64,000 nt of DNA from NCBI GenBank assembly GCA_902598405.1, contig CACKBQ010000004.1, forward strand, positions 1 to 64,000. The letters are read 5' to 3'. The notes beneath the pieces were generated by a model. That model saw only the letters and a list, made by a program, of their open reading frames with translations. It was not told the origin of the DNA and did not search any database. Positions 15,995 through 36,312 of this stretch are shown in pieces (position 1 is the first letter of the stretch; each line of letters starts with the position of its first letter). The position numbers and the translations under genes were made by a program. The DNA is from an uncultured Pelagibacteraceae bacterium (lineage in GTDB: Bacteria > Pseudomonadota > Alphaproteobacteria > Pelagibacterales > AG-422-B15).

Positions 15995-16957
15995 ATGATA
16001 TTTACTTCTATTACACCTGAAGCTTTTGATCATAAAAATATTCCAAATGACATTCATGAAATGAATGATCATATAAAAAACTTACTAGTCAACGCGCCTC
16101 CATCACATGAAATACCATTTGAGGTTTTGCAAGATATAAGAAGACAAGGCGGTGGATTGCTTGCGTTTCAGCCATACTCTGATCGTGCTGAAAATAGACA
16201 AGTGGGTGATGGTGACCAGAAAGTAACGATACGAATATTTAATCATGATAGTCCTGATTTTATTTATATGCATATTCACGGTGGAGGTCACTGTATCGGC
16301 GCTGCAGATATGCAAGACCAATCTTTGGAAAAAGTTTCAAAAGAGTTGAATTGCGTTGTTGTAAGCGTGGAATATCGTCTTGCACCAACCAATCCTTATC
16401 CTGCCGCTCCAGATGATTGTGAAACAGCCGCTACTTGGTTGATAGAAAATTCAAAAAAGGAATTCAATACTGAAAAGATTATAATTGGTGGCGAGTCGGC
16501 TGGCGCCAACTTATCAGCAGTTACATTGTTGAGATTGAAGAGTAAAGGGCTGCTAGATACTATCAAAGGAGCAAACCTTATTTATGGATCTTATGATGCT
16601 CGTCTAACTCCAAGTGCAATCAGACAAGAAGGTTCTGATGAGATTTTCTTATTATCATATGCCATGATTAGAAAATTTAGGGACTCATATTTTCAGGGAG
16701 ATGTAGACAAAAGTTTACCAGACGTTTCTCCAATACAAGGTGATTTAAGCGGAATGCCCCCAGCACTGTTTACAGTTGGAACAAGGGATTTATTGCTTGA
16801 TGACTCGTTATTTATGTTTGGTCGGTGGCTAAGTTATGGTTCTAATGCTGAGATTATAATTGTACCTGGAGCAGATCATGCTTTTAATGCATTTCCATCA
16901 GAAACAACTACCTTGGTTGAAAATAAGATTAACGAGTTTTTGCAATCAGTTCTCTAA
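15995..16957 (+). CDS. Alpha/beta hydrolase (HSL-like)
   Basis: 'MHIHGGGHCIG', 'GGESAGANLSAVTLL', 'PGADHAFNAF'. Confidence 0.85.
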   Translation: MIFTSITPEAFDHKNIPNDIHEMNDHIKNLLVNAPPSHEIPFEVLQDIRRQGGGLLAFQPYSDRAENRQVGDGDQKVTIRIFNHDSPDFIYMHIHGGGHCIGAADMQDQSLEKVSKELNCVVVSVEYRLAPTNPYPAAPDDCETAATWLIENSKKEFNTEKIIIGGESAGANLSAVTLLRLKSKGLLDTIKGANLIYGSYDARLTPSAIRQEGSDEIFLLSYAMIRKFRDSYFQGDVDKSLPDVSPIQGDLSGMPPALFTVGTRDLLLDDSLFMFGRWLSYGSNAEIIIVPGADHAFNAFPSETTTLVENKINEFLQSVL

Positions 16958-17791
16958 ATTACTGAGATAGTTTTCAGCTACACGTTGCCCTAAGTTGTAA
17001 TCAGCTTTCAAAATATTAACATTTTTAGAGTCTCTTTTTGATTTAAGTCTTGTTGGTGGGCATAATTGGATTACTTCACAATCTGAAGGAGGGTTATGTA
17101 TGAAATCTAAAGCAGTGTTGTAAGTTTTGTCATGCTTAAGCAGAGCTTTTCTAAGTTCAGGATATTCTTTAGAAAAAAATGCTCCAATATAATTTTCAAG
17201 TTTTAGTTTTCTCTTAAATTTTTCTTCATAAGTTCTAATAACTATGATGCGTTTGGCGCCGAGCTCATAAGCCTTTCTGACAGGCAGAGGATCAGCTACG
17301 CCGCCATCAAATTTACGACGTCCGTCTATCATGCTGGGTGTTCTTACTAGTACAGGCAAAGTTCCAGATGCTATCATTTTAGGCATCCATTCATCGTCTC
17401 CAAATTCATGATATTCAGCTTGAGCGCTAAGAGCATCAGTCACAACCGCAATGTATTTTTTGCCTTCAACAGTTTTTCTAATTTTTTCCATATTTGGCTT
17501 AAACATTTTCTCGCCGTCTTCGTACATTTTATGAAATTTGATTATGTCGCCACCTGTGAAGATATTTTTATAATCTAAGTAATCTCCTCGCGCAGCATAA
17601 AGCATCTTTTCTAAATTATTGTCAGTTTCTCTAATGAGGTACCAGCAAAGAACTGCTACACCATTTGATACTCCAATATAAATATCGAATGGATCGTAAT
17701 CCCTCTTTATAAATGTATCGGTGATTCCGAAAGAAAATACACCTCTTTGTCCGCCACCTTCAACAATTAGAGCTGTTTTTTTATTTTCCAT
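16946..17791 (-). CDS. Patatin-like phospholipase family protein
   Basis: 'ALIVEGGGQRGVFSFGITD', 'IYIGVSNGVAVL', 'FDGGVADPLPV'; start set at MENKKTALIVEGGG (17791) rather than 17827. Confidence 0.85.
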   Translation of the reverse strand: MENKKTALIVEGGGQRGVFSFGITDTFIKRDYDPFDIYIGVSNGVAVLCWYLIRETDNNLEKMLYAARGDYLDYKNIFTGGDIIKFHKMYEDGEKMFKPNMEKIRKTVEGKKYIAVVTDALSAQAEYHEFGDDEWMPKMIASGTLPVLVRTPSMIDGRRKFDGGVADPLPVRKAYELGAKRIIVIRTYEEKFKRKLKLENYIGAFFSKEYPELRKALLKHDKTYNTALDFIHNPPSDCEVIQLCPPTRLKSKRDSKNVNILKADYNLGQRVAENYLSNLEN

Positions 17792-17827
17792 GATACAATA
17801 AATTAGTAAGGATATATAAGAAATCAA

Positions 17828-18583
17828 ATGTGTTCGATAGTAATTTTAAAACAAAGTGACTCTGAGTGGCCCATTATAATTGGTGCCAATCGAGATGAAA
17901 TGAGTAATCGAGACGCTATACCACCTGGTCGTCATTGGGACGACAGACCACATATTTTTGCAGGCAAGGACATGACGGCGGGCGGTACCTGGATAGGAAT
18001 TAATGATTTTGGTGTTGTCGCTGCAATTATGAATAGAATGAACAGCCTTGGACCTATGGATAATAAAAGAAGTAGAGGTGAATTGGTTCTTGATGCACTA
18101 GATCATGCAGATGCATCTGAAGCATTAAATTCAATAATTGAAATTGAAAAAGACTCATATAGAGGTTTTAACATGTTCATAGCAGATAATTTAAATGCAT
18201 ATTGGATCAAGTCAGATGAAAAAAATTCTGTAATTGAATATTTCAATATCCCTGATGGCTTATCAATTATAACAGCTTATGATCGAAATGATTTAAATTC
18301 TAAGCGCATAAAAACTTATTTATCAAAATTTGCTTTATCGGTTGATCCAAAACCAGGTAAAGATGAATGGCAGGACTGGGAAATGTTATTAGGCAGTACA
18401 TATTCTGATAACAATGATCCTTTGTCAGCAATGTGTGTGAAAACAGACATGGGTTTTCAAACTGTATCTTCAACACTCATCGCTCTACCAAGTTTTCAAC
18501 CCAAGATGGGATCGGCAAAGCCTGTCTACAAATTTGCCAATGGCTCACCAGACTCGGCAAGTTTTATGGAAATGGACATTTGA
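17828..18583 (+). CDS. NRDE family protein (TANGO2-like)
   Basis: 'MCSIVIL...WPIIIGANRDEMSNRDAIPPGRHWDDRPHIFAGKDMTAGGTWIGIN'. Confidence 0.88.
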   Translation: MCSIVILKQSDSEWPIIIGANRDEMSNRDAIPPGRHWDDRPHIFAGKDMTAGGTWIGINDFGVVAAIMNRMNSLGPMDNKRSRGELVLDALDHADASEALNSIIEIEKDSYRGFNMFIADNLNAYWIKSDEKNSVIEYFNIPDGLSIITAYDRNDLNSKRIKTYLSKFALSVDPKPGKDEWQDWEMLLGSTYSDNNDPLSAMCVKTDMGFQTVSSTLIALPSFQPKMGSAKPVYKFANGSPDSASFMEMDI

Positions 18584-18721: not shown

Positions 18722-19930
18722 ATGACTGATTGCTATATTTACGACACTGTAAGAACCCCTCGTGGTAAGGGTAAAAAAAACGGAACCCTTCATGAAGTAA
18801 CTGCACTGGAACTTGCAACTCAAGTTTTAAATAATATTAAAGATAGAACAAAAATTGATACAGCAGATGTTGATGATGTTGTACTAGGATGTGTTGCGCC
18901 AGTTGGTGAACAAGGTGCCTGTATTGCAAGAACAGCAGTGTTAAATGCCGACTATGATCAATCAGTTTCAGGTGTTCAGATCAATAGATTTTGTGCATCT
19001 GGTTTAGAAGCTACTAATATGGCAGCTGCACAAGTAATGTCTGGACAGTCACAAATGTCCATCGGCGGCGGTGTTGAGTCTATGTCTAGAGTTCCAATGG
19101 GCTCGGATGGTGGCGCAATGGTTGCTGACCCTTCAGTTGCAATAAAAAATTACTTTGTTCCACAAGGTATTAGTGCAGACTTAATTGCTACCAAATATGG
19201 TTTCTCAAGAGATGATGTAGATAGTTATGCTGTTGAAAGTCAAAAGAGGGCAAAAAAAGCTTGGGATGAAAAAAGATTTTCAAAATCAATAACACCCGTG
19301 AAAGATATCAATGGTTTGACAGTGCTCGATCATGATGAACATATGAGACCTGATGCTACGATGCAATCACTTGGTTCTTTAGATCCATCTTTTGCAATGA
19401 TGGGTGAAATGGCAGGTTTTGATGCTACTATTCAACAACGATACCCTGAAGTTGAAGCTGTTAATCATGTACACACTGCTGGCAATTCGTCAGGAATAGT
19501 TGACGGAGCAGCTGGAATACTGCTTGGAAATAAAGAGATGGGTGACAAATATGGTTTGAAGGCTCGTGCTAAAATCAAAGGTTTTGCTTCAACAGGTTCT
19601 GAGCCAAGCATCATGCTAACTGGTCCTGGTTATGTTTCTGATAAACTACTAAAAAACTTAGGCATGAGCAAAAGTGACATTGACTTGTGGGAGCTTAACG
19701 AAGCATTTGCAGTTGTTGTACTAAGATATATGGAGCATATGGGGATTGATCACTCAGACATTAACGTAAATGGGGGCGCAATTGCTATGGGGCATCCATT
19801 GGGTGCAACTGGAGCTATGATCTTAGGAACTGTACTTGATGAGTTAGAGAGAAGCAATAAGTCTACTGCTCTTGCCACACTTTGTGTTGGTGGTGGTATG
19901 GGAACTGCAACCGTAATTGAGCGCGTTTAA
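18722..19930 (+). CDS. Acetyl-CoA C-acyltransferase (thiolase)
   Basis: '[22 protein letters not shown]', '[18 protein letters not shown]', '[18 protein letters not shown]'. Confidence 0.93.
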
Positions 19931-19956
19931 TAACTTAAAATTTTAGGACAATAATC

Positions 19957-22149
19957 ATGGCTGATGTAACTTATGAAATAGATAGCGACGGTGTTGCCGT
20001 TGTAACGTGGGATTTGGAAAATCGTTCAATGAACGTTTTAAATTTTCAATCTCTTGGTGAATATAGATCAATTATTGAGAAATTAATCTCAGATGAGTCA
20101 GTCAAGGGTATTGTTCTCAGAAGTGCAAAAGATGCATTCATAGCTGGCGCAGATTTAACTTCATCTGAAGTTTTTGGTTTTGATAGCGTTCAAGAAGATA
20201 AAGTTAAAGCTGCAGAAAAAATTTATAATGGCAACATGGACATGCAGCTATTGTTCAGAAGCATGGAAACATCTGGCAAGCCATTCGTAGCTGCGATAAA
20301 CGGTCATGCTTTAGGTGGTGGGTTTGAAATATGTCTCGCCTGTCACTATCGTGTAGCGATAGATAATGATAAAATTCAGATTGGACAACCTGAAGCGAAA
20401 GTTGGTTTGATACCTGGTGCAGGTGGAACTCAAAGAGTTCCTAGACTTGCCGGTGTAACTCAAGAGATAATGGGCTTTCTACTAGCAGGTACTCCGTTTA
20501 CTCCAAAAAAAGCTCTAAGTGCTGGCCTTATTAACGAAGTCACAGACGCAGATAACTTAATTAATGCAGCAAAAAAATATATTGTGGATGGCGGAAAATC
20601 AGTTCAACCATGGGACGAAAAAGGTTTTAGGTTTCCGGGGGGCCTTCCTTATACCCCAAAAGGCGCAATGATTTGGGCTGCGGCATCATCTTCATTGAGA
20701 AAAAATTCTTATAATAACTATCCTGCACAAACTGCAATCCTTTCTGCTGTTTATGAAGGCGTTCAGGTGCCGATTGATGCAGCACTGAGAATTGAAGCGC
20801 GTTATTTTACAAAAGTTGTAATGGATCCTAGATCTCAAAATATGGTTCGAAGTCTTTTTGTAAATATGCAAGCTTTGAGCAAAGGCGCAAGAAGACCAAA
20901 AGATTTTGATAAATATGATGTTAAAAAGATTGGAATTCTTGGTGCAGGCTTAATGGGCGCAGGAATTGCCTATGTTACTGCTAAAGCAGGCATTGAAGTT
21001 GTATTAATTGATATGGATCAAGCTGCGGCAGAAAAAGGAAAAGAATATTCTACTAAGATTTTAGATAAACAATTAAGTAAGAAAAAAACTACTGAAGAAA
21101 AAAAAGAAAAGCTATTAAGTCTCATTACGCCTACAACTGATTACTCTCTTCTAAAGGGCGCAGATCTTATTGTAGAGGCAGTATTTGAAAATAGGGATAT
21201 AAAAGCAGATGTAACCGCTAAAGCAGAAGCGCAAATATCAGAAACTGCTGTATTTGGTTCCAATACATCTACTTTGCCAATTACAGGTCTAGCTCAAAAT
21301 TCTAGCCGTCCTGCAAACTTCATAGGTATTCATTATTTTTCACCAGTAGAGAGAATGCCTTTAGTTGAGATCATCATGGGAAAAGAAACTTCTCAGGAAA
21401 CATTGGCAAAAACAATGGATTACGTTCAAAAAATTAGAAAGACTCCAATTGTTGTAAACGACAGTAGGGGTTTTTACACTAGTCGTGTATTTGGTACATA
21501 CACTGGCGAAGGTGTTGCAATGTTAGCAGAAGGTATAAAACCAGCTTTAATTGAAAATGCTGGTAAAATGACAGGCATGCCAATGGCTCCACTAGCTCTT
21601 TCTGATGCTGTGGCATTGGATCTTGCATGGAAAGTAACAACTCAAACGAAAAAGGACTTTGAAGCTGAAGGCAAAGAGTTCCCAATAACTCCGATGTATT
21701 CAATTATGGAAGAAATGGTTGAAAAGCAAGGCAGGTTTGGGAAGAAAAACAATAAAGGTTTTTATGAGTATCCTGAAAATGGAAAAAAATACCTATGGCC
21801 TGAACTTTCTAACCTATGCAAAGAAAGTGACGATCAACCAGATGTTGAGGAATTAAAGAAAAGATTTCTATATATACAAGCACTTGAAACAGCTAAATGC
21901 TATGAAGAAAACGTACTAACAGATGTTAGAGATGCGGACATTGGCGCAATACTAGGTTGGGGCATGGCACCATGGACCGGAGGTCCACTATCCTTCATCG
22001 ATATGGTTGGTGTTAAAGAATTTGTGGCTGAAGCTGATAAACTCGCACAAAAATATGGAGAAAGATTTACTCCATGTAAAATGCTTCGTGATATGGCGGC
22101 TAAAAATGAGAGTTTCCACAAGGGCGGTAGCTCTAGTCAAGCAGCTTAA
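19957..22149 (+). CDS. 3-hydroxyacyl-CoA dehydrogenase/enoyl-CoA hydratase fusion (FadB/FadJ-like)
   Basis: Enoyl-CoA hydratase half 'GGFEICLACHYRVA', HAD half 'GILGAGLMGAGIAYVTAKAGIEVVLID'. Confidence 0.93.
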   Translation: MADVTYEIDSDGVAVVTWDLENRSMNVLNFQSLGEYRSIIEKLISDESVKGIVLRSAKDAFIAGADLTSSEVFGFDSVQEDKVKAAEKIYNGNMDMQLLFRSMETSGKPFVAAINGHALGGGFEICLACHYRVAIDNDKIQIGQPEAKVGLIPGAGGTQRVPRLAGVTQEIMGFLLAGTPFTPKKALSAGLINEVTDADNLINAAKKYIVDGGKSVQPWDEKGFRFPGGLPYTPKGAMIWAAASSSLRKNSYNNYPAQTAILSAVYEGVQVPIDAALRIEARYFTKVVMDPRSQNMVRSLFVNMQALSKGARRPKDFDKYDVKKIGILGAGLMGAGIAYVTAKAGIEVVLIDMDQAAAEKGKEYSTKILDKQLSKKKTTEEKKEKLLSLITPTTDYSLLKGADLIVEAVFENRDIKADVTAKAEAQISETAVFGSNTSTLPITGLAQNSSRPANFIGIHYFSPVERMPLVEIIMGKETSQETLAKTMDYVQKIRKTPIVVNDSRGFYTSRVFGTYTGEGVAMLAEGIKPALIENAGKMTGMPMAPLALSDAVALDLAWKVTTQTKKDFEAEGKEFPITPMYSIMEEMVEKQGRFGKKNNKGFYEYPENGKKYLWPELSNLCKESDDQPDVEELKKRFLYIQALETAKCYEENVLTDVRDADIGAILGWGMAPWTGGPLSFIDMVGVKEFVAEADKLAQKYGERFTPCKMLRDMAAKNESFHKGGSSSQAA

Positions 22150-22198: not shown

Positions 22199-23521
22199 AT
22201 GGCAAATACCACACCTACGACTAATTCTTTGGAAAACTATTTTTTACCTTTTACTGCAAATAAAGACTTTAAGAAGGATCCAAGATTATTAGACAGAGGT
22301 GAGGGAGTATACTACTGGAATCATAAGGGCGACCAGGTAATAGATGCTTCTTCAGGTCTATTTTGTGTTCCATTGGGACATGGCAGAAAAGAAATAGCTG
22401 AAGCTGTTCATCAGCAATTATTAAAATTAGATTACTCTCCTAGCTTCCAAGTTTCTCATTTACCTGCTTTTGCATTAGCTGAAAAGGTAGCAAATCTTCT
22501 ACCGGGAGATTTAAACAATGTCTTCTTTACAATTTGTGGATCTACTGCAATTGACTCTGCAATTAAAATAATTCAGGCTTATCAGCACGCAATTGGACAA
22601 TCGCAACGTGTAAGGTTTGTGTCAAGAGAACGCGCATACCATGGTGTAAATATCGGAGGAACCTCATTAAGTGGCATGATTAAAAACCGTGAGATATTTA
22701 CTGCAACAATGCCTGGAGTTATTCATTTAAGACACACTTGGTTAGAAGAAAATAAATATACAAAAGGTCAGCCGCAACATGGAGCTCATCTTGCTGAGGA
22801 TCTTCAAAGGTTTGTTGAAATGTATGGTCCCGAGTCAATTGCTGGGTGTTTCGTCGAACCCATTGCTGGTTCAACAGGAACAATTGTTCCCCCTATTGGA
22901 TATTTAGAGAGGTTGAGAGAGATTTGTGATAAATATGGGATTGTTCTTGTTTTTGATGAAGTCATCACTGGTTTTGGTAGAACAGGAAAATCATTTGGGG
23001 CTGTAAAATACAATGTACAGCCTGATATGATTACAATGGCAAAGGCAATTACTAATGGAGCGCAGCCTATGGGGGCAGTTGGTGTTTCAGATAAAATTTA
23101 CAATGCGATTGTTGATAATGGACCAGAGCACGGAGTAGAGTTTTTTCACGGATATACTTACTCAGGTCATCCAGCTTGTGTAGCAGCATCTCTTGCTACT
23201 TTAGATGTATATGAAAAAGAAGATGTGTTCGCAAGAGCAGAAAAGATGTCGCCATACTTTATAGATGCAGTTTTTGATGCATTTCAGGATATACCAATTG
23301 TTACAGACGTAAGAGCGGATGGAATGATGGCTGCTTTTGATCTAGCAGTTGATAAAAATCCTGGTGTGAGAGGATATGATGCCCAAAAGAAAACATTTGC
23401 TAATGGTGTTCACATAAAATTTACTGGGGATGCTGGTATAGTTGCCCCTGCATTAATTGCTGAAGAAAAACATATAGATGAAATGCTTCAAAGAATTAAA
23501 GAGGTCTTAGTAAAATACTAG
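22199..23521 (+). CDS. Class III aminotransferase, omega-amino acid/taurine:pyruvate type
   Basis: 'YFLPFTANKDFKKDPRLL', PLP region 'LVFDEVITGFGRTGKSFGAVKYNVQPDMITMAKAITNGAQPMGAV'; same operon as xsc. Confidence 0.85.
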   Translation: MANTTPTTNSLENYFLPFTANKDFKKDPRLLDRGEGVYYWNHKGDQVIDASSGLFCVPLGHGRKEIAEAVHQQLLKLDYSPSFQVSHLPAFALAEKVANLLPGDLNNVFFTICGSTAIDSAIKIIQAYQHAIGQSQRVRFVSRERAYHGVNIGGTSLSGMIKNREIFTATMPGVIHLRHTWLEENKYTKGQPQHGAHLAEDLQRFVEMYGPESIAGCFVEPIAGSTGTIVPPIGYLERLREICDKYGIVLVFDEVITGFGRTGKSFGAVKYNVQPDMITMAKAITNGAQPMGAVGVSDKIYNAIVDNGPEHGVEFFHGYTYSGHPACVAASLATLDVYEKEDVFARAEKMSPYFIDAVFDAFQDIPIVTDVRADGMMAAFDLAVDKNPGVRGYDAQKKTFANGVHIKFTGDAGIVAPALIAEEKHIDEMLQRIKEVLVKY

Positions 23522-23529
23522 CAACTTAT

Positions 23530-25974
23530 ATGTCAAAGCTTCCTTCACACACAGAGGTTGTTATTATTGGAGGAGGCATTGCTGGTACAAGCATTGCATA
23601 CCACCTTGCAGAGAGAAATGTTCAGGTCACACTTGTTGAAAGAAAGAGTTTAACTTGTGGCACAACTTGGCATGCAGCTGGATTGGTTGGTCAATTAAGG
23701 GCAACAAAAAATCTTACAAAAATGGCCAAGTATTCAACGGAGCTCTATCATAAGCTTAATCAGAAAGAAGATCTATCTGCTGGATTTTTGATAAATGGTT
23801 CAGTTTCTATTGCGGAAAATGAGGGGCGTTATCAAGAAATGAGTAGAGGCGCATCAATGGGTCGAAGTTATGGCTTAGAAATAAATGAAATTTCAATTGA
23901 TGAAGTAAAGGAGAAATACCCACTTCTCGATACAAAGCATGTTAAAGGAGCATGGTTTTTGCCTCAAGACGGGCAAATTAACCCGGTAGATATTACAATG
24001 TGCCTTGCAAAAGAAGCAAGACGAATGGGTGCTAACATTATTGAAAATAATAAAGTCATTTCAATCGAACAAGAAGGTGACAAGGTCACAAAAGTTATTA
24101 CACAACAAGGTGATATTACATGTGATAAGATTGTTATATCTGCTGGAATGTGGAGTAGGGAAGTAGGTAAAATGTGCGGGGTGAATATACCTCTGCATGC
24201 ATGTGAACATTTCTATGCTGTAACTGAATATTCAGAAGATATACCAAAAAATTTACCCATCTTAAGAAACCCAGATGCCTATATTTATGTGAAGGAGGAC
24301 GCCGGAAAACTTTTAATAGGCGCCTTTGAAAAGAAAGCAAAGCCTTGGGGCATGAACGGTATTCCTGAAGATTTCGAATTTGATAGTTTACCAAACGACC
24401 TTGATCATTTCGGACCTATTTTAATGGAAGCAATGGATAGGCTTCCAATATTGAATGAGCTTGGCATTAAAACATATTTTAATGGACCTGAGAGCTTCAC
24501 ACCTGATGATAGGTATTACTTAGGCAAAGTGCCTTACAAAGAAAATATATTTGTTTCTACTGGCTTCAATTCAATAGGAATTCAATCTGCTGGAGGAGTT
24601 GGCAAAGTTATGGCTGATTGGATCATAAATGACAAAAGTAAGATTGATTTGTGGGATGTAGATGTCGCTAGAGTATTAGATTTTCAAGATGATAATGAAT
24701 ATTTAAGAGAAAGAAGCTCTGAAACGCTTGGGCTCTTGTATGCTGTGCATTGGCCATACTATCAATTTGAAACGTCAAGAAACAAAATTAAATCTCCACT
24801 CTATAACCAACTTGAAAAAGAAGGAGCTTGCTTCGGAGAAGCGGCTGGATGGGAAAGGCCAAATTGGTATACCAATAATGGTCAAAGACCTCAATATCAA
24901 TACTCGTATCATAAACAAAATTGGTTTGAAAATGTAAGGAGTGAATGTATTGCAGTAAGAAATGATATTGGCTTATTTGAACTTACATCTTTCTCTAAGT
25001 TTATTATTCGAGGAGATGATGTAGTTAATTTTTTAAACTATATGTGTGTAAGTGAAATGAATGTACCAATTGGGCGAATTATATATACACAAATGTTAAA
25101 TGACGAAGCTGGAACAGAAGGAGACATTACTTTTACAAGAATAAGTGAAAATGAATTTATGTTTGTTACGGGTCCAACTTCACACAATAAAGACTATTAC
25201 TGGTTATTATCTCATTCAAAAAAATTTAAAAATATAGAAATTATTGATGTTACTAAACAATATGGCTGTCTTTCAATAATGGGACCCAATTCAAGGGAGC
25301 ACCTTCAAAGAATATGTAATGAGGATATTTCAAATGAAACATTACCGTTTGGATTTTCTAAGAAAATAAATCTTGTTGGCGCTGAATGTAGGCTTCATAG
25401 AATTACATACGTTGGCGAGTTGGGTTTTGAAATATACATCCCTTATAATAATTTGGAAAAAGTATTTGATGTTGTTTATGCAAAAAATGGAAAGAGCCCA
25501 GTAAAACTTGCAGGCTATCATGCACTAAATTCACTGAGAATGGAGAAAGGGTATCTTCATTGGGGGCATGATATTGGAGTTGAGGAAAACCCTTTTGAAG
25601 CGGGTGTTGGATTTTGTGTAAACTTTAATAAGAAGATGCCTTTTTTAGGACAGGCAGCACTTGAAGAAAAGAAGAAGTCTGGTCTTAGTAAAAGAAAAGT
25701 AAATTTTGCATTATCTAACAATGACTTATTGATTTATCACAATGAGCCAATCTATTTTGACGGTAAGATTGTTGGTGAAATTTCTTCAGGTATGTATGGT
25801 TTCTATTTAGACAAATCCCTAGGCATGGGTTACATTTCAAACAATGATAGTTACTCTGTTGAGGAAATGATGAGTCATCAAAAATTTGAAATTGAAGTTG
25901 CTGAAACTAAATATTCTGCAGAGGGGTCAATAAATTGTTTTTATGATCCAGGCAGAGAAAAAATATTAGTGTAG
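23530..25974 (+). CDS. FAD-dependent dimethylglycine/sarcosine dehydrogenase-like protein with GcvT-type C-terminus
   Basis: 'EVVIIGGGIAGTSIAYHLAE', 'CGTTWHAAGL' (covalent-FAD His context in DMGDH/SARDH), C-terminal aminomethyltransferase-like 'ALNSLRMEKGYLHWGHDI'. Confidence 0.88.
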   Translation: MSKLPSHTEVVIIGGGIAGTSIAYHLAERNVQVTLVERKSLTCGTTWHAAGLVGQLRATKNLTKMAKYSTELYHKLNQKEDLSAGFLINGSVSIAENEGRYQEMSRGASMGRSYGLEINEISIDEVKEKYPLLDTKHVKGAWFLPQDGQINPVDITMCLAKEARRMGANIIENNKVISIEQEGDKVTKVITQQGDITCDKIVISAGMWSREVGKMCGVNIPLHACEHFYAVTEYSEDIPKNLPILRNPDAYIYVKEDAGKLLIGAFEKKAKPWGMNGIPEDFEFDSLPNDLDHFGPILMEAMDRLPILNELGIKTYFNGPESFTPDDRYYLGKVPYKENIFVSTGFNSIGIQSAGGVGKVMADWIINDKSKIDLWDVDVARVLDFQDDNEYLRERSSETLGLLYAVHWPYYQFETSRNKIKSPLYNQLEKEGACFGEAAGWERPNWYTNNGQRPQYQYSYHKQNWFENVRSECIAVRNDIGLFELTSFSKFIIRGDDVVNFLNYMCVSEMNVPIGRIIYTQMLNDEAGTEGDITFTRISENEFMFVTGPTSHNKDYYWLLSHSKKFKNIEIIDVTKQYGCLSIMGPNSREHLQRICNEDISNETLPFGFSKKINLVGAECRLHRITYVGELGFEIYIPYNNLEKVFDVVYAKNGKSPVKLAGYHALNSLRMEKGYLHWGHDIGVEENPFEAGVGFCVNFNKKMPFLGQAALEEKKKSGLSKRKVNFALSNNDLLIYHNEPIYFDGKIVGEISSGMYGFYLDKSLGMGYISNNDSYSVEEMMSHQKFEIEVAETKYSAEGSINCFYDPGREKILV

Positions 25975-25985
25975 AAAGTATAGTT

Positions 25986-27764
25986 ATGACTAAAATGACG
26001 ACAGAAGAAGCATTTGTAAAAGTTTTGCAAAAACACGGAATACAGCACGCATTTGGAATAATTGGATCTGCATTCATGCCAATTTCCGATTTATTTCCAA
26101 AGGCAGGTATTACTTTCTGGGACGTAGCTCATGAAAATAACGGCGGTATAATCGCAGACGGCTATACTAGAGCGACAGGAAAAATGTCTATGTGCATTGC
26201 ACAAAATGGCCCAGGCATTACTAACTTTGTTACGCCAATAAAAACTGCATACTGGAATCACACTCCAATGCTTCTAGTTACTCCACAAGCGGCTAATAAA
26301 ACTATAGGACAAGGTGGCTTTCAGGAAGTAGAACAAATGGCATTGTTTAAAGATATGGTTTGCTACCAGGAGGAAGTGAGAGATCCTACTAGAGTTGCCG
26401 AAGTACTAAATCGAGTAATTTCAAAAGCATTCAAAGGTTCTGCTCCAGCACAAATAAATATTCCTCGCGATATGTGGACACAAGTTATAGATATCGAGTT
26501 ACCGCCAATAATAAAATTTGAAAGACCATCAGGAGGAATCGAAGCAATAAAAGAAGCGGCAAAACTTCTATCTAATGCTGACTTTCCAGTAATATTATCA
26601 GGAGCAGGGGTGGTCTTAGCTGATGCAATCAATGACTGCAAAGCTTTAGCTGAAAAATTAGACTCACCTGTTGCTTCTGGCTATCAACATAATGATAGTT
26701 TTCCAGGTAGTCATCCACTTGCAGTGGGGCCTTTAGGTTATAACGGCTCAAAAGCTGCTATGGAGTTAATTTCTAAAGCAGACGTTGTTCTTGCCTTAGG
26801 AACTAGACTAAACCCATTTTCAACATTACCTGGTTACGGAATAGATTATTGGCCAAAAGATGCAGCTATTATTCAGGTTGATATAAATTCTGATAGAATT
26901 GGATTAACAAAAAAAGTTTCAGTAGGTATATGCGGTGATGCAAAACAAGTTGCTCAGCAATTATTAAATAGTCTTTCTCCTGAAGCGGGAAACAAAAATA
27001 GAGATGAGAGAAAAGCTCTAATTCATCAAACCAAATCTGCTTGGTTACAAACATTGAGTAGTATGGATCATGAAGATGACGATCCTGGAACGTCATGGAA
27101 TGAGGAAGCTAGAGTAAGGGATGCAGATCGCATGTCTCCTCGCATGGCTTGGAGGGCTATACAGAATGGCTTACCAAAAAATGCAATAATTTCATCCGAC
27201 ATAGGCAATAACTGCGCAATAGGAAATGCTTATCCAACATTTGAGGAAGGTAGAAAATATTTAGCTCCAGGTCTTTTTGGGCCTTGCGGTTATGGCTTCC
27301 CTTCAGTTTTAGGAGCTAAAATAGGCTGTCCAAATATTCCTGTTGTTGGTTTCGCTGGAGATGGAGCTTTTGGTATAAGCATGAACGAAATGACATCTTG
27401 TGCTAGGGAAGAATGGCCTGCAATAACAATGGTGATATTTAGAAACTATCAGTGGGGCGCCGAAAAAAGAAATTCGATATTATGGTATGACAATAATTTC
27501 GTCGGTACCGAACTAGATCCTGAATTAAGCTACGCAAAGGTTGCAGAAGGCTGCGGATTGAAGGGTGTTATAGTTAAAACCATGGATGAGCTGACAAATT
27601 CACTCAGAGCTGCGTGTGAAGAACAGTCAAATGGAGTTACAACTTTTATTGAAGTTATTTTAAATCAAGAGCTTGGGGAACCTTTCAGACGAGATGCAAT
27701 GAAAAAACCAGTTGAAGTTGCCGGCATCAATCCTGATGATATGAGCCAAGAGCAGCACGGTTAA
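25986..27764 (+). CDS. xsc: Sulfoacetaldehyde acetyltransferase (ThDP enzyme)
   Basis: Long Xsc-like N-terminus 'EEAFVKVLQKHGIQHAFGIIGSAFMPISDLFPKAGITFWDVAHENNGGIIADGYTRATGKM'; ThDP motif 'VGFAGDGAFGISMNE'. Confidence 0.92.
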   Translation: MTKMTTEEAFVKVLQKHGIQHAFGIIGSAFMPISDLFPKAGITFWDVAHENNGGIIADGYTRATGKMSMCIAQNGPGITNFVTPIKTAYWNHTPMLLVTPQAANKTIGQGGFQEVEQMALFKDMVCYQEEVRDPTRVAEVLNRVISKAFKGSAPAQINIPRDMWTQVIDIELPPIIKFERPSGGIEAIKEAAKLLSNADFPVILSGAGVVLADAINDCKALAEKLDSPVASGYQHNDSFPGSHPLAVGPLGYNGSKAAMELISKADVVLALGTRLNPFSTLPGYGIDYWPKDAAIIQVDINSDRIGLTKKVSVGICGDAKQVAQQLLNSLSPEAGNKNRDERKALIHQTKSAWLQTLSSMDHEDDDPGTSWNEEARVRDADRMSPRMAWRAIQNGLPKNAIISSDIGNNCAIGNAYPTFEEGRKYLAPGLFGPCGYGFPSVLGAKIGCPNIPVVGFAGDGAFGISMNEMTSCAREEWPAITMVIFRNYQWGAEKRNSILWYDNNFVGTELDPELSYAKVAEGCGLKGVIVKTMDELTNSLRAACEEQSNGVTTFIEVILNQELGEPFRRDAMKKPVEVAGINPDDMSQEQHG

Positions 27765-28436: not shown

Positions 28437-29552
28437 ATGTTGATCGGTATCCCTAAAGAAATTAAGCCACAAGAAAATAGAGTAGGCCTAACTCCTGAAA
28501 GTGTAAAGGAACTTATTGATGATGGTAATGAAGTAATCATTGAAAGAACAGCCGGTCAGGGGTCAGGTTTTGATGATCAAAATTATAACGATGTTGGGGC
28601 GACAGTTTTTGAAAATGCGCAAGATATTTTTGATCGCGCTGAGTTGATCATTAAAGTTAAAGAACCTCAAGAAGATGAAATTAAAAAGTTGAAAGATGGT
28701 CAGCTGCTATTCACATATTTACACCTTGCTGCAAGTAAAGCATTGACAGAAGGATTAATGAATTCTGGAGCAACATGTATAGCTTACGAAACTATAACCG
28801 ATAAAAATGGAAGGCTTCCATTACTTGCTCCGATGAGTGAAGTAGCTGGTAGAATTTCAATACAAGCAGGAGCCAGAGCTCTTGAAATGACAAACAAAGG
28901 AAGAGGCGTCTTATTATCTGGTGCAACAGGAGCACCGCCAGCTAAAGTTGTAATTATTGGATGTGGAGTTGTAGGGTTTAATGCCGCCCTTATTGCTCAT
29001 GGAATGAAATCAAATGTAACGCTTATTGATCAATCTGAAGCAAGACTCAATGAATTAAAAAATTATTTTAATAATGAAGTCAATACATCAATATCAACAC
29101 CTGAAACTATAGCTGAAGAAGTTAAAAACTGTGACTTGCTAATAGGAGGTGTGCTGATCCCGGGTTCTAGTGCGCCCAAATTAGTATCGGATGAACTAGT
29201 TTCTAAAATGAAAAAAGGAGCAGCCATTGTGGATGTCGCAATAGATCAAGGTGGGTGCATTGAAACCAGCAAGCCTACTACTCACGCAGACCCGGTTTAT
29301 ATTAAACATGACGTGGTACATTACTGTGTAACAAATATGCCAGGATGCGTTCCCCGTACATCTACCATCTCTCTAAATCAAGCTACATTACCGTTCGTAA
29401 AAAAATTAGCGAGAGATGGGTTAAAAAAAGCGTTATCTGATGATAGGAATTTTATGAATGGGCTAAATGTTATAAAAAATAAGTGCACTCAAGCAGATGT
29501 AGCAAGAGATCTAAACATAGCATTTTCAAACCCTGAAAATTTAGTTGCTTAA
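28437..29552 (+). CDS. ald: Alanine dehydrogenase
   Basis: 'MLIGIPKEIKPQENRVGLTPESVKEL', 'VVIIGCGVVGFNAALIAHGM', 'DVAIDQGGCIETSKPTTH'. Confidence 0.93.
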   Translation: MLIGIPKEIKPQENRVGLTPESVKELIDDGNEVIIERTAGQGSGFDDQNYNDVGATVFENAQDIFDRAELIIKVKEPQEDEIKKLKDGQLLFTYLHLAASKALTEGLMNSGATCIAYETITDKNGRLPLLAPMSEVAGRISIQAGARALEMTNKGRGVLLSGATGAPPAKVVIIGCGVVGFNAALIAHGMKSNVTLIDQSEARLNELKNYFNNEVNTSISTPETIAEEVKNCDLLIGGVLIPGSSAPKLVSDELVSKMKKGAAIVDVAIDQGGCIETSKPTTHADPVYIKHDVVHYCVTNMPGCVPRTSTISLNQATLPFVKKLARDGLKKALSDDRNFMNGLNVIKNKCTQADVARDLNIAFSNPENLVA

Positions 29553-30866: not shown

Positions 30867-32012
30867 GTGAAGAAAATTAATAAAACTCTTAAGGCTGCAA
30901 AAGTTTCAAGAAGATCAGTCCTGAAAGGTGCAGCTGCAACTGGTGCAGCAGCAGCTATTGGGCCTTGGTATATTCCAAACGCTTTTGCTGCTCCCGTTGT
31001 TAATGTTTTAATGTGGGGCGAATATTTGCCGGACTCAGTAGTTGCAGATTTCAAAGCAAAAACTGGAATTACTGTTAACCATACTAAAATAGGAGATAAC
31101 GGTGAAATTATATCAAAAATGAAAGCTGGTGGTGGAGCCGGTTATGACCTTGCAAGTCCAACAAACATGAGAGCTTTGCAATGGGCTGACCTTGGCGTAC
31201 TTGCCCCATTTGATATGAATCGAATAAACACAAGCGCTGTTAACCCAGGAATGCTAGCTGTTGGTGAGCGTGACTGGAATTTTGGTGGAAAAGGATCTCA
31301 CTGGGTACCACAACTTTGGGGTACTGAGTCGATTTCTTGGAGAACCGACAAATGGCAACCCGATGGACTTCCAAGCTTTGGAGATATTTGGGAGCCTAAT
31401 CCTGGAATAGATGGCGCATTCATGATGGGTAGAACATACTCAATGATGACTGGATGTGGTATTTGGATGCATCATCAAGGCAAAATGGATTTCTGGTCTT
31501 CGTACAACGATGAAGATACAATGAGAAAGAATTGGGAAACAATTACTGACTATTGTATTTCAAAAAAAGGAAATCTTGTTAAATTTTGGTCTGGTGCCGA
31601 TCCTCAGAAACAAGGATTCACATCTGATGGTGTTGTCGTAGGACAAACTTGGGATGGCCCTATTGCAGCAATGATGAAAGCTGGAGAACCAGTTGCGTAC
31701 CAAACTACTGATGAGGGTGCGTTGGCATGGATCGACGGTATAACAATGTCTGCAAAAGCAGAAAACATTGATGAAGCTTATGAGTTAATCAATTACAGTT
31801 TTACACCAGAAGTAGGCGGCCAAACTGTGAATGAAATCGGTTATAACTCAGCTGTTAATGGAGCTTCAGACCATTACTCAGATGAAACTAAAGCTTTAGC
31901 AAAAGCAATATACCCGGGGGACACTTCGACCAAGTTAAATCCTTGGCCACCAGAACCGCCATGGTATGCTGATGCAAGAGCTGAATACGCTAACAAATTT
32001 GAAACAGCGTAA
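30867..32012 (+). CDS. ABC transporter substrate-binding protein, spermidine/putrescine type (Tat signal)
   Basis: 'VSRRSVLKGAAATGAAAAIG' signal; 'VNVLMWGEYLPDSVVADFKAKTGITVNHTKIG'; next to PotABC homologs. Confidence 0.88.
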   Translation: MKKINKTLKAAKVSRRSVLKGAAATGAAAAIGPWYIPNAFAAPVVNVLMWGEYLPDSVVADFKAKTGITVNHTKIGDNGEIISKMKAGGGAGYDLASPTNMRALQWADLGVLAPFDMNRINTSAVNPGMLAVGERDWNFGGKGSHWVPQLWGTESISWRTDKWQPDGLPSFGDIWEPNPGIDGAFMMGRTYSMMTGCGIWMHHQGKMDFWSSYNDEDTMRKNWETITDYCISKKGNLVKFWSGADPQKQGFTSDGVVVGQTWDGPIAAMMKAGEPVAYQTTDEGALAWIDGITMSAKAENIDEAYELINYSFTPEVGGQTVNEIGYNSAVNGASDHYSDETKALAKAIYPGDTSTKLNPWPPEPPWYADARAEYANKFETA

Positions 32013-32036
32013 TTAGTTCTCTAGGATTAGTTATTA

Positions 32037-32068
32037 AAAGCGCCCAAGGCATTGTCTTGGGCGTTTTT
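32037..32068 (+). terminator. Rho-independent terminator between substrate-binding protein and ATPase genes
   Basis: CGCCCAAG-GCATTGT-CTTGGGCG followed by TTTTTAT; 8-bp GC-rich stem plus flanking A/T pairs. Confidence 0.92.
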
Positions 32069-32110
32069 ATTGAATCGTGTTTTTCAGTTAAACCATTATA
32101 ATTTGTATCA

Positions 32111-33208
32111 ATGAGCGCAGATGTAGAGTTAAGTGATGTTTCGGTAACATTTGGCAGTTTTTATGCCGCCAAGAATGTCAATGTGAAAGTAAATGGAGGT
32201 GAGTTCTTCAGCTTCTTAGGACCTTCAGGCTGCGGAAAGACTACTCTGTTAAGGGCTATATCTGGATTTCAAGAACCTTCTGAAGGTAAAGTGCTTATTG
32301 ACAATAAAGATATGTCTGGAATTGGTCCAAATAAAAGACCAACCGCGTTAATATTTCAAAACTTAGCTCTGTTTCCTCTCATGAGTGTATCAGAAAATAT
32401 TGCATTTTCCCTTGAAGTAAGGGGCGTATCAAAAGAAGAAAGAAAAAAAAGAGCGGATGAACTTTTGGAATTGATAGCATTAGAGGGACAAGGAGATAAA
32501 AAAGTTCATCAACTCTCTGGAGGTCAAAAACAAAGAGTAGCCATTGCAAGAGCTTTAGCTGTTGAGCCAAAAGTTCTTCTTTTAGATGAACCATTGTCTG
32601 CCTTGGATTTAAAACTTCGTCAAAGAATGAGAACCGAACTTAGAGAAATACAAAAAAGAGTAAACATTACATTTATTTATATTACGCACGATCAAGGAGA
32701 AGCCCTAACAATGTCTGATCGAATAGCGGTCATGAATGAAGGAGAGCTTGAGCAAATTGGAAAATGCGACGAAGTTTATAACAATCCATTAACACCATTT
32801 GTTGCAACATTCGTTGGTGAGAATAATCCTTTATATGGAAAAGTTACAGGTATTGAGGGAGATAAAGCTAAAATTGAAACTGCTGATGGGCAATATTTAG
32901 CAACGATGAATGAAAGCAAAAAGTTAAATATTGGAGATGAGTCAATTGCATTTGTTAGACCTGAGTCTTTGTTTATACCAAGAGATGGCGACAACTTTGA
33001 TAATAAAATTGATGTGAATATTGAAAGTTTTGAATTTGAAGGAAATTTAAAAAACTTTTACGCAAGCCTTAAATCGGGAGCAAAAATTAAATTTTCAGTA
33101 CCAAACGCCATAGATACATCCTCTATAACTTCAGGATCGTCAATCGTACTAGGTTTTGAATCTTCAAAATCAGTAATATTACCCAAAGCATCTCTAGCTA
33201 TAGATTAA
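32111..33208 (+). CDS. ABC transporter ATP-binding protein (PotA-like)
   Basis: 'LGPSGCGKTTLLRAISG', 'LSGGQKQRVAIARAL', 'LLLDEPLSALD', C-terminal TOBE region. Confidence 0.93.
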   Translation: MSADVELSDVSVTFGSFYAAKNVNVKVNGGEFFSFLGPSGCGKTTLLRAISGFQEPSEGKVLIDNKDMSGIGPNKRPTALIFQNLALFPLMSVSENIAFSLEVRGVSKEERKKRADELLELIALEGQGDKKVHQLSGGQKQRVAIARALAVEPKVLLLDEPLSALDLKLRQRMRTELREIQKRVNITFIYITHDQGEALTMSDRIAVMNEGELEQIGKCDEVYNNPLTPFVATFVGENNPLYGKVTGIEGDKAKIETADGQYLATMNESKKLNIGDESIAFVRPESLFIPRDGDNFDNKIDVNIESFEFEGNLKNFYASLKSGAKIKFSVPNAIDTSSITSGSSIVLGFESSKSVILPKASLAID

Positions 33209-33211
33209 GTC

Positions 33212-34141
33212 ATGAACAATTTTTTATTTACTCAACCATTTTTTAAGAAAAACGGTAAGGCAGTTGCGATATATTTTTTAGTAGCAATAATATTTTGGTT
33301 TGTTTTCTTAGTTATAATTCCACAATTTTATATGTTGGATTTATCATTTAGAACCAACGTCCCCCCTTTAGCAAGAGGTGGACCTGAAGATTATTATACT
33401 TTTGAACACTATAGCCACTTTATATTTGGATCTAAGACAGCCACTGATGCTTTTAACTTTGTTGATTTAGGTGTATTTGGAAGAACTATTTTTGTTTCAA
33501 TGCTTGTCACAATTGCAAATCTGCTATTTTGCTATCCAATAGCATTTTATATAGCGAAAATTGCAAATCCTAGTACCGCTAGACTTCTTATTGTTTCTCT
33601 GATTATTCCTTTCTGGATTAATGAATTGCTTAGATCATTCGCATTGAGAATTTTGTTTGCAAACGAAGGTGTAATTAACAATTTCTTGACTGGGGTTGGA
33701 TTACTCGATCAAGGAATCCTATTTATCACTTATGATATCGGCTTATATACCGGCTTAATATACGCTTATATTTTGCTGATGATGTTCCCTCTCTATAATG
33801 CAATCGAAAGTTTGGACATTAATCAAATCGAGGCAGCAAAAGATTTAGGTTCCTCGTCTTTTAGAACACATTGGAGAATAGTTATTCCTCATGCAAAACC
33901 AGGTATCGTATCTGGTTGTACTATGGTTTTTATGTTAACTGTTGGAGCATTAGCAACACCAGTTGTTTTAAGTAGTCCTAATACTTTATGGTTTCCTCAA
34001 CTGATATATCAATGGTTTAACATGAATGACAACTGGTCTAGAGGATCAGCTTATTCAATTATTTTGTTAATAGTATCTGTTATTTTTGTGCTCACAATGA
34101 TGCGAATATTTAAAGTTAGAATTGGAGAAATTATCAAGTGA
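33212..34141 (+). CDS. ABC transporter permease (PotB-like)
   Basis: 'EAAKDLGSSSFRTHWRIVIPHAKPGIVSG' EAA motif; between PotA- and PotC-like genes. Confidence 0.92.
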   Translation: MNNFLFTQPFFKKNGKAVAIYFLVAIIFWFVFLVIIPQFYMLDLSFRTNVPPLARGGPEDYYTFEHYSHFIFGSKTATDAFNFVDLGVFGRTIFVSMLVTIANLLFCYPIAFYIAKIANPSTARLLIVSLIIPFWINELLRSFALRILFANEGVINNFLTGVGLLDQGILFITYDIGLYTGLIYAYILLMMFPLYNAIESLDINQIEAAKDLGSSSFRTHWRIVIPHAKPGIVSGCTMVFMLTVGALATPVVLSSPNTLWFPQLIYQWFNMNDNWSRGSAYSIILLIVSVIFVLTMMRIFKVRIGEIIK

Positions 34142-35346
34142 GACCGAGTTATTTTATAAATTTCATGATGGGAATATATATTTTTATATTTTTCGCATAC
34201 TTATTTGGGCCGTTGATCATCATGAGCATTACAGCATTCAACTCTGCAGAATTTCCATCGATCACACCTTGGGAATGTTTTAGTTTTAGATGGTTTAATG
34301 AAGGTAAAATTGCTTATGATGGACAACATCTGGCAGGACTTTTATCTGACTGGAGACTTCACGATGGTATTATTAGCAGTTTGATTATAGGTGCAGGAGT
34401 TGTAACTCTCTCCGTACCGATTGGAATGGCCGCAGCAATAGTATTAACTCAAGTGCGTTCGCAGTTGAGGGATATTTATTACTCAATTTCGATTATGCCC
34501 GTTTTATTTCCTGGTGTGATAATTGGTATTTCAACAGTCGTTTTATGGGACCGAATAGCAGGCTTAGGAGGAGAGGGGTTCATTGCAGATATTGGAAGAA
34601 ACGGAATATTTCTAACAATTTTGGCTCAAACCTGTTTTATATCTACTTATTGTTTTTTAATATTTGTAGCAAGACTTCAAAGATTTGATCAGACTCAAGA
34701 AGAGGCAGCTTTAGACCTTGGAGCGTCGCAAACTCAAGTATTTTTTAAAATTTTAGTTCCTTACTTAAGCCCCGCAATAGCATCGGCTGCAGTAATTGCT
34801 TTTTTATTTTCATTTGAAAATTATAACACGACTGTATTTAGCATTTTATCGGATCAAACATTAACAACTGTAATTGCATCAAAAGTAAGGCTGGGAATAA
34901 GTCCTGCATTGAGTGCATTAGCTTTAACAATAATAGCGTTAACTATTATAGCTGCAGTTACCTATGAGGTTTTACGAAGAAGAGCAGAAAAACGATATGC
35001 AGAGTCTCAGGAAAAGTTTGTAAAAGAAAAAGCAGCAGACAATAGAATTAATAAAAAATATAAAGCTGGTTTTAAAATTCCAAAGGGAATTGCCGCTATA
35101 TTGTTAATAGTGGTCTTTGCTACTTACGGAGCTACCCAAGTAGTGAAAAATGATCTTTACGGACAATCATGTATTGATGCTGCTGATAAGGAGAAAAAAT
35201 CCAAATTTCTTGAACAATTGCAAACTTTAGAGTCTAATGAACTTACTGATGAAGAACTTTCTGGAGGGTCCTTAGGTGGCAATCAGGATTACGGAGATAT
35301 ATTTGGAGACCCATCATTATTCCAAGATTTTGGAGGATTTGATTAA
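34138..35346 (+). CDS. ABC transporter permease (PotC-like) with an unusual C-terminal extension (GTG start)
   Basis: 'EAALDLGASQTQVFFKILVPYLSPAI'; after the permease domain a further TM helix and acidic/Gly-rich tail. Confidence 0.9.
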   Translation: MRPSYFINFMMGIYIFIFFAYLFGPLIIMSITAFNSAEFPSITPWECFSFRWFNEGKIAYDGQHLAGLLSDWRLHDGIISSLIIGAGVVTLSVPIGMAAAIVLTQVRSQLRDIYYSISIMPVLFPGVIIGISTVVLWDRIAGLGGEGFIADIGRNGIFLTILAQTCFISTYCFLIFVARLQRFDQTQEEAALDLGASQTQVFFKILVPYLSPAIASAAVIAFLFSFENYNTTVFSILSDQTLTTVIASKVRLGISPALSALALTIIALTIIAAVTYEVLRRRAEKRYAESQEKFVKEKAADNRINKKYKAGFKIPKGIAAILLIVVFATYGATQVVKNDLYGQSCIDAADKEKKSKFLEQLQTLESNELTDEELSGGSLGGNQDYGDIFGDPSLFQDFGGFD

Positions 35347-35352
35347 TAGATT

Positions 35353-36312
35353 ATGAGCGATAAAAAAGAACCAATTCAACCAGTAAGCGGAACAGTTGTT
35401 CCTAGGTATGCTGGCCCATCTACATTTGCACGTCTTCCTGAGCTGAGAGATGTTGAAGAGTGTGATGTAGCTATTATAGGTGTACCATTTGATGCAGGTA
35501 CGAGTTATCGTCCTGGGGCTAGATTTGGTCCTCAAAGTGTAAGACAAGCTTCTAGACAGCTGAGAACGAATTATCATCCAAACTATGATGTTGAACCTTT
35601 CAAGGTGCAACAGGTAGCTGATGCTGGGGACATAGCCTGTAATCCCTTTGATATTGACGAGGCAATTAAGCAAATTGAAAAAGGATCTACTGAGCTGCTC
35701 CAAAAAGTTGGAAGTATTGTAACTATTGGCGGTGACCACACAATTGCATTGCCATTACTTAGATCAATTAATAAAAAGGTTGGTGGTCCGGTTGCCTTAG
35801 TTCACTTTGACGCTCACTTGGATACTTGGGACACATACTTCGGAGCTCCTTATACGCACGGTACGCCATTTAGAAGAGCAAGAGAAGAAAAGCTATTTTT
35901 GGATGATGCATCAATGCATATTGGAATTCGTGGCCCTCTTTACAGTACAAATGATTTAAAAAATGATCGTGAATTAGGTTTTAAAACCATTCACTGCGAT
36001 GAATTCCAAACAAACACAATTGATCAAATTGTTAAAAGAATAAAAGATAGAATTGGCAATAATCCATTATATATATCCATAGATATTGATGTTTTAGATC
36101 CAGCACATGCTCCTGGAACTGGAACCCCAGAAGTTGCGGGAATGACCACAAGAGAAATATTAAATGTATTAAGAGGATTGGCAGGTTCACAGCTTGTTTC
36201 AGCAGATGTCGTGGAAGTCGCCCCAGCCTATGATCATGCAGAACTTACGTCGACCGCTGCAGCAACAATTGTTTATGAGCTGATAAATATTATTGCAAGA
36301 AACCCAAAGTAA
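35353..36312 (+). CDS. speB: Agmatinase/ureohydrolase family protein
   Basis: 'GGDHTIALPLLRSI', 'ALVHFDAHLDTWD', 'SIDIDVLDPAHAPGTGTPEVAGMTTRE' Mn-binding motifs. Confidence 0.88.
   Translation: MSDKKEPIQPVSGTVVPRYAGPSTFARLPELRDVEECDVAIIGVPFDAGTSYRPGARFGPQSVRQASRQLRTNYHPNYDVEPFKVQQVADAGDIACNPFDIDEAIKQIEKGSTELLQKVGSIVTIGGDHTIALPLLRSINKKVGGPVALVHFDAHLDTWDTYFGAPYTHGTPFRRAREEKLFLDDASMHIGIRGPLYSTNDLKNDRELGFKTIHCDEFQTNTIDQIVKRIKDRIGNNPLYISIDIDVLDPAHAPGTGTPEVAGMTTREILNVLRGLAGSQLVSADVVEVAPAYDHAELTSTAAATIVYELINIIARNPK

Follow-up and report, generated by a model that had tools for sequence, protein, structure and literature searches.

Taurine is a major labile solute of the sea, of which SAR11 bacteria are abundant consumers, and methylated taurines occur in marine organisms. 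To our knowledge, no folate-linked route for methylated taurines has been described. The cultured N-methyltaurine degraders Alcaligenes faecalis and Paracoccus versutus reportedly release methylamine, as Weinitschke and colleagues are said to have found in 2006; this N-methyltaurine dehydrogenase route acts on the compound considered here and likewise ends at Xsc, but it yields methylamine and is not known to involve folate-linked demethylation. A full-text literature search, with subscription papers mostly outside its reach, returned no report of a folate-linked bacterial N-methyltaurine demethylase.

Characterized enzymes provide points of comparison. Human DMGDH carries FAD at His91, oxidizes its amine substrate at the flavin, captures the released carbon on THF, and passes electrons to ETF (PMC5082570). 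The N-methyl-aminoethylphosphonate oxidoreductases PbfC and PbfD are FAD enzymes appended to a core pathway, to which they open an N-methylated substrate (PMC10590968). They are single-domain proteins with non-covalent FAD, encoded in phosphonate clusters, that convert N-methyl-AEP to phosphonoacetaldehyde and methylamine and are inactive on taurine (PMC10590968). The protein described below would resemble them as an FAD enzyme that opens a core pathway to an N-methylated substrate, and differs from them in being a multidomain protein with a predicted covalent flavin and a proposed demethylating, rather than methylamine-releasing, reaction.

We analyzed a 64,000-nucleotide stretch of DNA (the window; GC 35%) from a SAR11-type MAG (1.05 Mb, 81% complete), in which a gene of the DMGDH/SARDH family lies between a probable taurine:pyruvate aminotransferase gene (tpa) and xsc (Table 1). 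The three products are 440, 814, and 592 aa long and the intergenic gaps are 8 and 11 nt; the plus-strand reading frames and spacing given by a first-pass annotation of this DNA proved exact. Profile searches leave the identities of Xsc (TIGR03457, 961.8 bits against a cut-off of 676.4) and Ald (TIGR00518, 471.4 bits against 391.85) in no doubt, and the row contains the authentic xsc of a taurine (Tpa-Xsc) locus. The aminotransferase passes the AptA model NF052567 of NCBIfam (563.1 bits, cut-off 500), and among solved structures it comes closest to beta-alanine/omega-amino-acid:pyruvate transaminases. Its earlier description as a taurine-type aminotransferase needs correction on this point: the protein family is AptA-type, and a probable role in taurine metabolism is therefore deduced from the xsc linkage.

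We consider it fairly probable that the intervening gene encodes a demethylase for methylated taurine, acting on N-methyltaurine and possibly on N,N-dimethyltaurine; within this reading, we infer the substrate, the side on which the product forms, the electron acceptor, and the transporter. The FAD domain would act on the N-methyl group of N-methyltaurine (perhaps also of N,N-dimethyltaurine), oxidizing it to an iminium; the carbon would be trapped as 5,10-methylene-THF in the fused folate domain, and the electrons would pass to ETF. Taurine and pyruvate would then be converted by the AptA-type aminotransferase to sulfoacetaldehyde, with Ald recycling the alanine, and Xsc would cleave sulfoacetaldehyde to sulfite and acetyl phosphate. 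The alpha subunit of ETF is absent from the incomplete source assembly, whereas each of seven near-complete SAR11 genomes searched for it, relatives from the source genome's own family included, encodes it. Delivery of taurine to the next enzyme would account for the optional nature of the gene, the retention of tpa, and the C1-oxidation and ETF genes that travel with its relatives.

Table 1. Coordinates of the features in and around the taurine gene row of the window.
Feature	Position	Strand	Basis or remark
Class-III omega-aminotransferase (AptA type), probable taurine:pyruvate aminotransferase (tpa)	22199..23521	+	NF052567, Aminotran_3, adjoins xsc
DMGDH/SARDH-family flavoprotein of clade B, candidate N-methyltaurine demethylase	23530..25974	+	Domains, 5l46 match, tree, omega
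His48, covalent FAD attachment site by homology	23671..23673	+	Alignment to 5l46; equivalent to human DMGDH His91
His227, corresponding to His225 (catalytic) in Arthrobacter DMGO	24208..24210	+	Unchanged across both clades, A and B
Tyr253, corresponding to Tyr259 (catalytic) in Arthrobacter DMGO	24286..24288	+	Invariant
Asp532, corresponding to Asp552 (folate domain) in Arthrobacter DMGO	25123..25125	+	Asp throughout clade B, mostly Glu in clade A
Tyr627, corresponding to Tyr651 (folate domain) in Arthrobacter DMGO	25408..25410	+	
Glu634, corresponding to Glu658 (folate domain) in Arthrobacter DMGO	25429..25431	+	Invariant
xsc, sulfoacetaldehyde acetyltransferase	25986..27764	+	TIGR03457
ald, alanine dehydrogenase	28437..29552	+	TIGR00518; able to restore the pyruvate that the aminotransferase consumes
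PotD-like binding protein (30867-32012), ATPase (32111-33208), and two permeases; possible sulfonate importer	30867..35346	+	Profile searches

The candidate demethylase contains, in a single chain and all above Pfam gathering cut-offs, the domains DAO (residues 10-364), FAO_M (369-418), GCV_T (424-695), and GCV_T_C (721-806) that define the DMGDH/SARDH architecture. Its best matches among solved structures, nearly full length, are human DMGDH (5l46; E 4.5e-133) and rat DMGDH (4p9s/4pab; E 1.4e-129), in keeping with the DMGDH-like assignment made at first reading. The covalent-flavin context noted then is also in place: the motif CGTTWHAAG, within the (S/T)TWHAAGL context of the family, contains His48, which is predicted by homology with human His91 to form the covalent bond to FAD. 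The catalytic His/Tyr pair and the folate-domain Asp/Tyr/Glu set are present as well, each with a counterpart in the N,N-dimethylglycine oxidase (DMGO) of Arthrobacter globiformis (1pj5, 3gsi), with which the protein also shares its architecture. All six residues are retained in the seven taurine-linked relatives checked. Since none of the flavin, base, and folate residues has been lost, C1 transfer to THF is to be expected. The protein shares with DMGDH its domain order, covalent-FAD His context, catalytic His and Tyr, folate domain, and fold; it differs in overall identity (about 30%), in belonging to another deep clade, in having Asp for Glu at the folate-domain acid, and in its proposed sulfonate substrate. 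Identity to the Arthrobacter enzyme is about 26%, and unlike that oxidase the window protein is probably an ETF-using dehydrogenase. An AlphaFold model built from 11 sequences (pLDDT 73.6) has low reliability near the active site and served for the fold only; a fold search with it gave DMGDH and DMGO as top matches (TMq 0.83 to DMGDH). Alignment of clades A and B (see below) yielded no single residue marking sulfonate specificity.

Conservation was followed in the family of the source genome (f1) and in a neighboring, Pelagibacter-like family (f2). Every f1 ortholog with readable neighbors (65-98% identity) stands exactly between tpa and xsc. The first-pass annotation had left the recurrence of this triplet to be checked; it is found in more than 15 related genomes, and the gene row is thus not a product of chance. 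One named relative, whose protein is 98% identical, is the uncultured Pelagibacteraceae bacterium AG-895-F07. Other f1 genomes (L062-L070) have tpa directly adjoining xsc and no demethylase, which bears out the earlier statement that plain taurine degradation needs no DMGDH-like enzyme and marks the demethylase as an accessory, added step. Between more distant f1 genomes the demethylase is 65-84% identical, compared with 88-97% for tpa and 89-93% for xsc. Despite this faster divergence, its dN/dS (omega) of 0.05-0.15, where calculable and with dS near saturation, indicates purifying selection. As judged from gene order and substitution patterns, the putative demethylase is an optional but functional insert in the f1 taurine gene row. 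The copy of one close relative (L024, genome G021) has in-frame stops, possibly from a frameshift or a MAG assembly error.

Thiolase and FadJ-type genes (18722-22149) lie directly upstream of the aminotransferase gene, at a gap of 49 nt. They accompany it even in the few f1 genomes (L187-L190) that have tpa with neither xsc nor demethylase, and the aminotransferase may therefore also serve another pathway. Farther upstream (16946-18583), a patatin-like gene on the minus strand sits beside a TANGO2-like gene on the plus strand, a pair kept across f1. The AptA-like character of the aminotransferase, its beta-alanine transaminase relatives, the thiolase and FadJ genes before it, and its occurrence without xsc in some sister genomes could all be accommodated if N-methyl-beta-alanine or another beta-amino acid were demethylated and beta-alanine passed to the aminotransferase. 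The xsc-less sister genomes, however, are also without the demethylase, and in f1 the demethylase is found solely with xsc, two contig ends aside; we regard this alternative as very improbable.

Phylogenetic trees split the family into two deep clades. Clade A comprises human DMGDH, both other paralogs of the source genome, and their f2 counterparts. Clade B comprises the window gene together with 40-52% identical relatives, which come from alphaproteobacteria, gammaproteobacteria, and a small number of other bacteria. The phylogenetic placement called for by the first-pass annotation was thus obtained in part: the window protein does not group with characterized human DMGDH, in a comparison that covered DMGDH and no characterized SARDH sequence. 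The clade-B genes of f1 and f2 are joined under a fast model, with a long-branch warning, and not under a mixture model; a constraint uniting f1, f2, and L160 is not rejected (p-AU 0.48). A single clade for all taurine-linked clade-B genes was rejected (p-AU 1.6e-49), the loci being scattered in the tree. No relative of the window gene was found on viral contigs.

Clade-B genes are often paired with a clade-A gene, frequently together with an MttB-type methyltransferase and an HTH-cupin regulator, an association that looks like stepwise betaine demethylation. Where A and B co-occur, the clade-A enzyme would plausibly take the tertiary amine and the clade-B enzyme the secondary amine, and an added MttB would take the trimethyl form. 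This company, and the breadth of clade B, could also belong to an enzyme of glycine betaine breakdown, a dehydrogenase of sarcosine (or dimethylglycine), that has come to lie in a taurine operon by chance, osmolyte genes being grouped or co-regulated. Against such an assignment, two clade-A paralogs are already present in the source genome, and one of them directly follows a BHMT-like homocysteine S-methyltransferase gene; the window gene is cleanly inserted between tpa and xsc and occurs at no other f1 location. The second clade-A paralog is clustered with further genes weakly resembling its flavin or folate half.

The clade-B gene of the f2 genomes, about 43% identical to the window gene, is no more than 6 kb away from a tpa-like gene in 32 of the 45 genomes in which both were found, and lies elsewhere in the remainder; the usual layout is TauABC // tpa-ald-B. 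xsc is present in 46 of the 48 f2 genomes with clade B, versus 6 of the 16 without it (Fisher p 3e-6, relatedness ignored). Neither tpa nor xsc is close to the clade-B gene in the f2 genome G058. The HTCC1062 gene SAR11_1221, named sardh by prediction as a putative sarcosine dehydrogenase (PMC3160333), is probably the clade-B relative at G058 position 1167054, matched by chromosome position, that is, gene order and spacing, only. It would then be about 43% identical to the window gene, from which it differs in not being near tpa or xsc, and its function is a prediction. This likely correspondence keeps a sarcosine dehydrogenase as the main rival of the demethylase we propose, although we think it an unlikely one. 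At six loci of one Pelagibacter-type subclade the clade-B gene now stands beside an iron-uptake-like ABC transporter; we set these transporter genes aside as an uninformative clue to function.

Outside SAR11, we collected 104 clade-B loci by protein similarity, irrespective of neighbors, with the flank fixed before xsc was counted. xsc occurs in the fetched flank of six, where 0.09 would be expected from the xsc density in these data and an assumed 3.8-Mb genome, a post hoc estimate that ignores relatedness. The linkage is thus repeated in unrelated lineages far above chance, which again speaks against a sarcosine dehydrogenase placed fortuitously. MttB is near 21 of the 104, pointing to betaine-type substrates. 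The first-pass annotation had taken homologs lying mostly outside xsc operons as a sign against its proposal; this is so for the wider clade, with just the six linked loci, and not for the near orthologs, all of which are in tpa-xsc rows. Given the breadth of the clade, most of whose members have no xsc close by, clade-B membership alone is uninformative about sulfonates.

Two of the six loci belong to Arenicellales, and the others include Ahrensia and further alphaproteobacteria. The Arenicellales order is B-alaX-GFA-pta-xsc-(ald)-tpa, with ald in one of the two; the genes between B and pta-xsc (L281, 10548-11770; L282, 10457-11619) encode AlaX-type tRNA-editing and GFA-type (glutathione-dependent formaldehyde-activating family) proteins. 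The alphaproteobacterium G224 has MttB-TauCBA...A-B-pta-xsc-tpa across about 25 kb. Its MttB-type gene adjoins TauC and TauB and shares their orientation (L283, 2196-6678), a placement that would suit trimethyl taurine (taurine betaine) as substrate. Ahrensia kielensis combines TauABC, a MocR-type regulator, A, B, pta, and xsc. This A-B pair is the genome's sole strong one and may serve glycine betaine, a point in favor of the sarcosine assignment. Two more clusters came to light besides these. On a plasmid of Paracoccus seriniphilus, TauABC-like genes, a cupin gene, A, B, ETF beta, ETF alpha, folD, and purU run in one direction and are followed by xsc, and Marinomonas pollencensis has TauAB // ETF-QO, ETF beta, ETF alpha, purU, B, folD, HTH // A. 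The clade-B copy of Paracoccus denitrificans PD1222 has no taurine context at its locus. The TauA-, TauB-, and TauC-like proteins of Paracoccus, Marinomonas, Ahrensia, and f2 match taurine models best, at scores below the curated cut-offs, and so may carry another ligand.

These partner genes also bear on which side of the nitrogen is oxidized. N-Methyltaurine could be split into sulfoacetaldehyde and methylamine, bypassing the aminotransferase, as reported for the cultured degraders and in the analogous phosphonate reaction. The partner clusters nevertheless bring FolD, PurU, or GFA for C1 units, the fused folate domain retains Asp532, Tyr627, and Glu634, and tpa is kept beside the demethylase; we regard methylamine release as very improbable. 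Returning to demethylation, similar genes beside taurine genes in several unrelated bacteria suggest an undescribed route for methylated taurine. More tentatively, marine bacteria might hold a distributed methylated-taurine pathway in which MttB, A, and B strip the three methyl groups of taurine betaine singly, C1 units flow through ETF, FolD, and PurU, and taurine proceeds to Xsc, with the final step present in SAR11 as an optional addition to its taurine operon. If the demethylase reading is correct, organosulfonate turnover would be tied to one-carbon energy metabolism, and genes annotated merely as "FAD-dependent oxidoreductase" or "sarcosine dehydrogenase" would acquire a function. Cultured test organisms would be at hand in Paracoccus seriniphilus DSM 14827, Marinomonas pollencensis CECT 7375, and Ahrensia kielensis DSM 5890.

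TauABC was considered as the importer in the source genome and dropped, as TauC was found neither there nor in seven near f1 relatives. Because TauC is absent, we propose the PotD-like ABC system downstream of ald as a possible importer of the sulfonate and a candidate for taurine-type compounds. The system stays close by in f1 genomes whether or not they have the demethylase, and in both Arenicellales tpa is followed by a gene for a binding protein that is 50-52% identical to the one encoded at 30867-32012. An agmatinase gene (35353-36312) comes after the transporter genes, which may instead serve polyamines.
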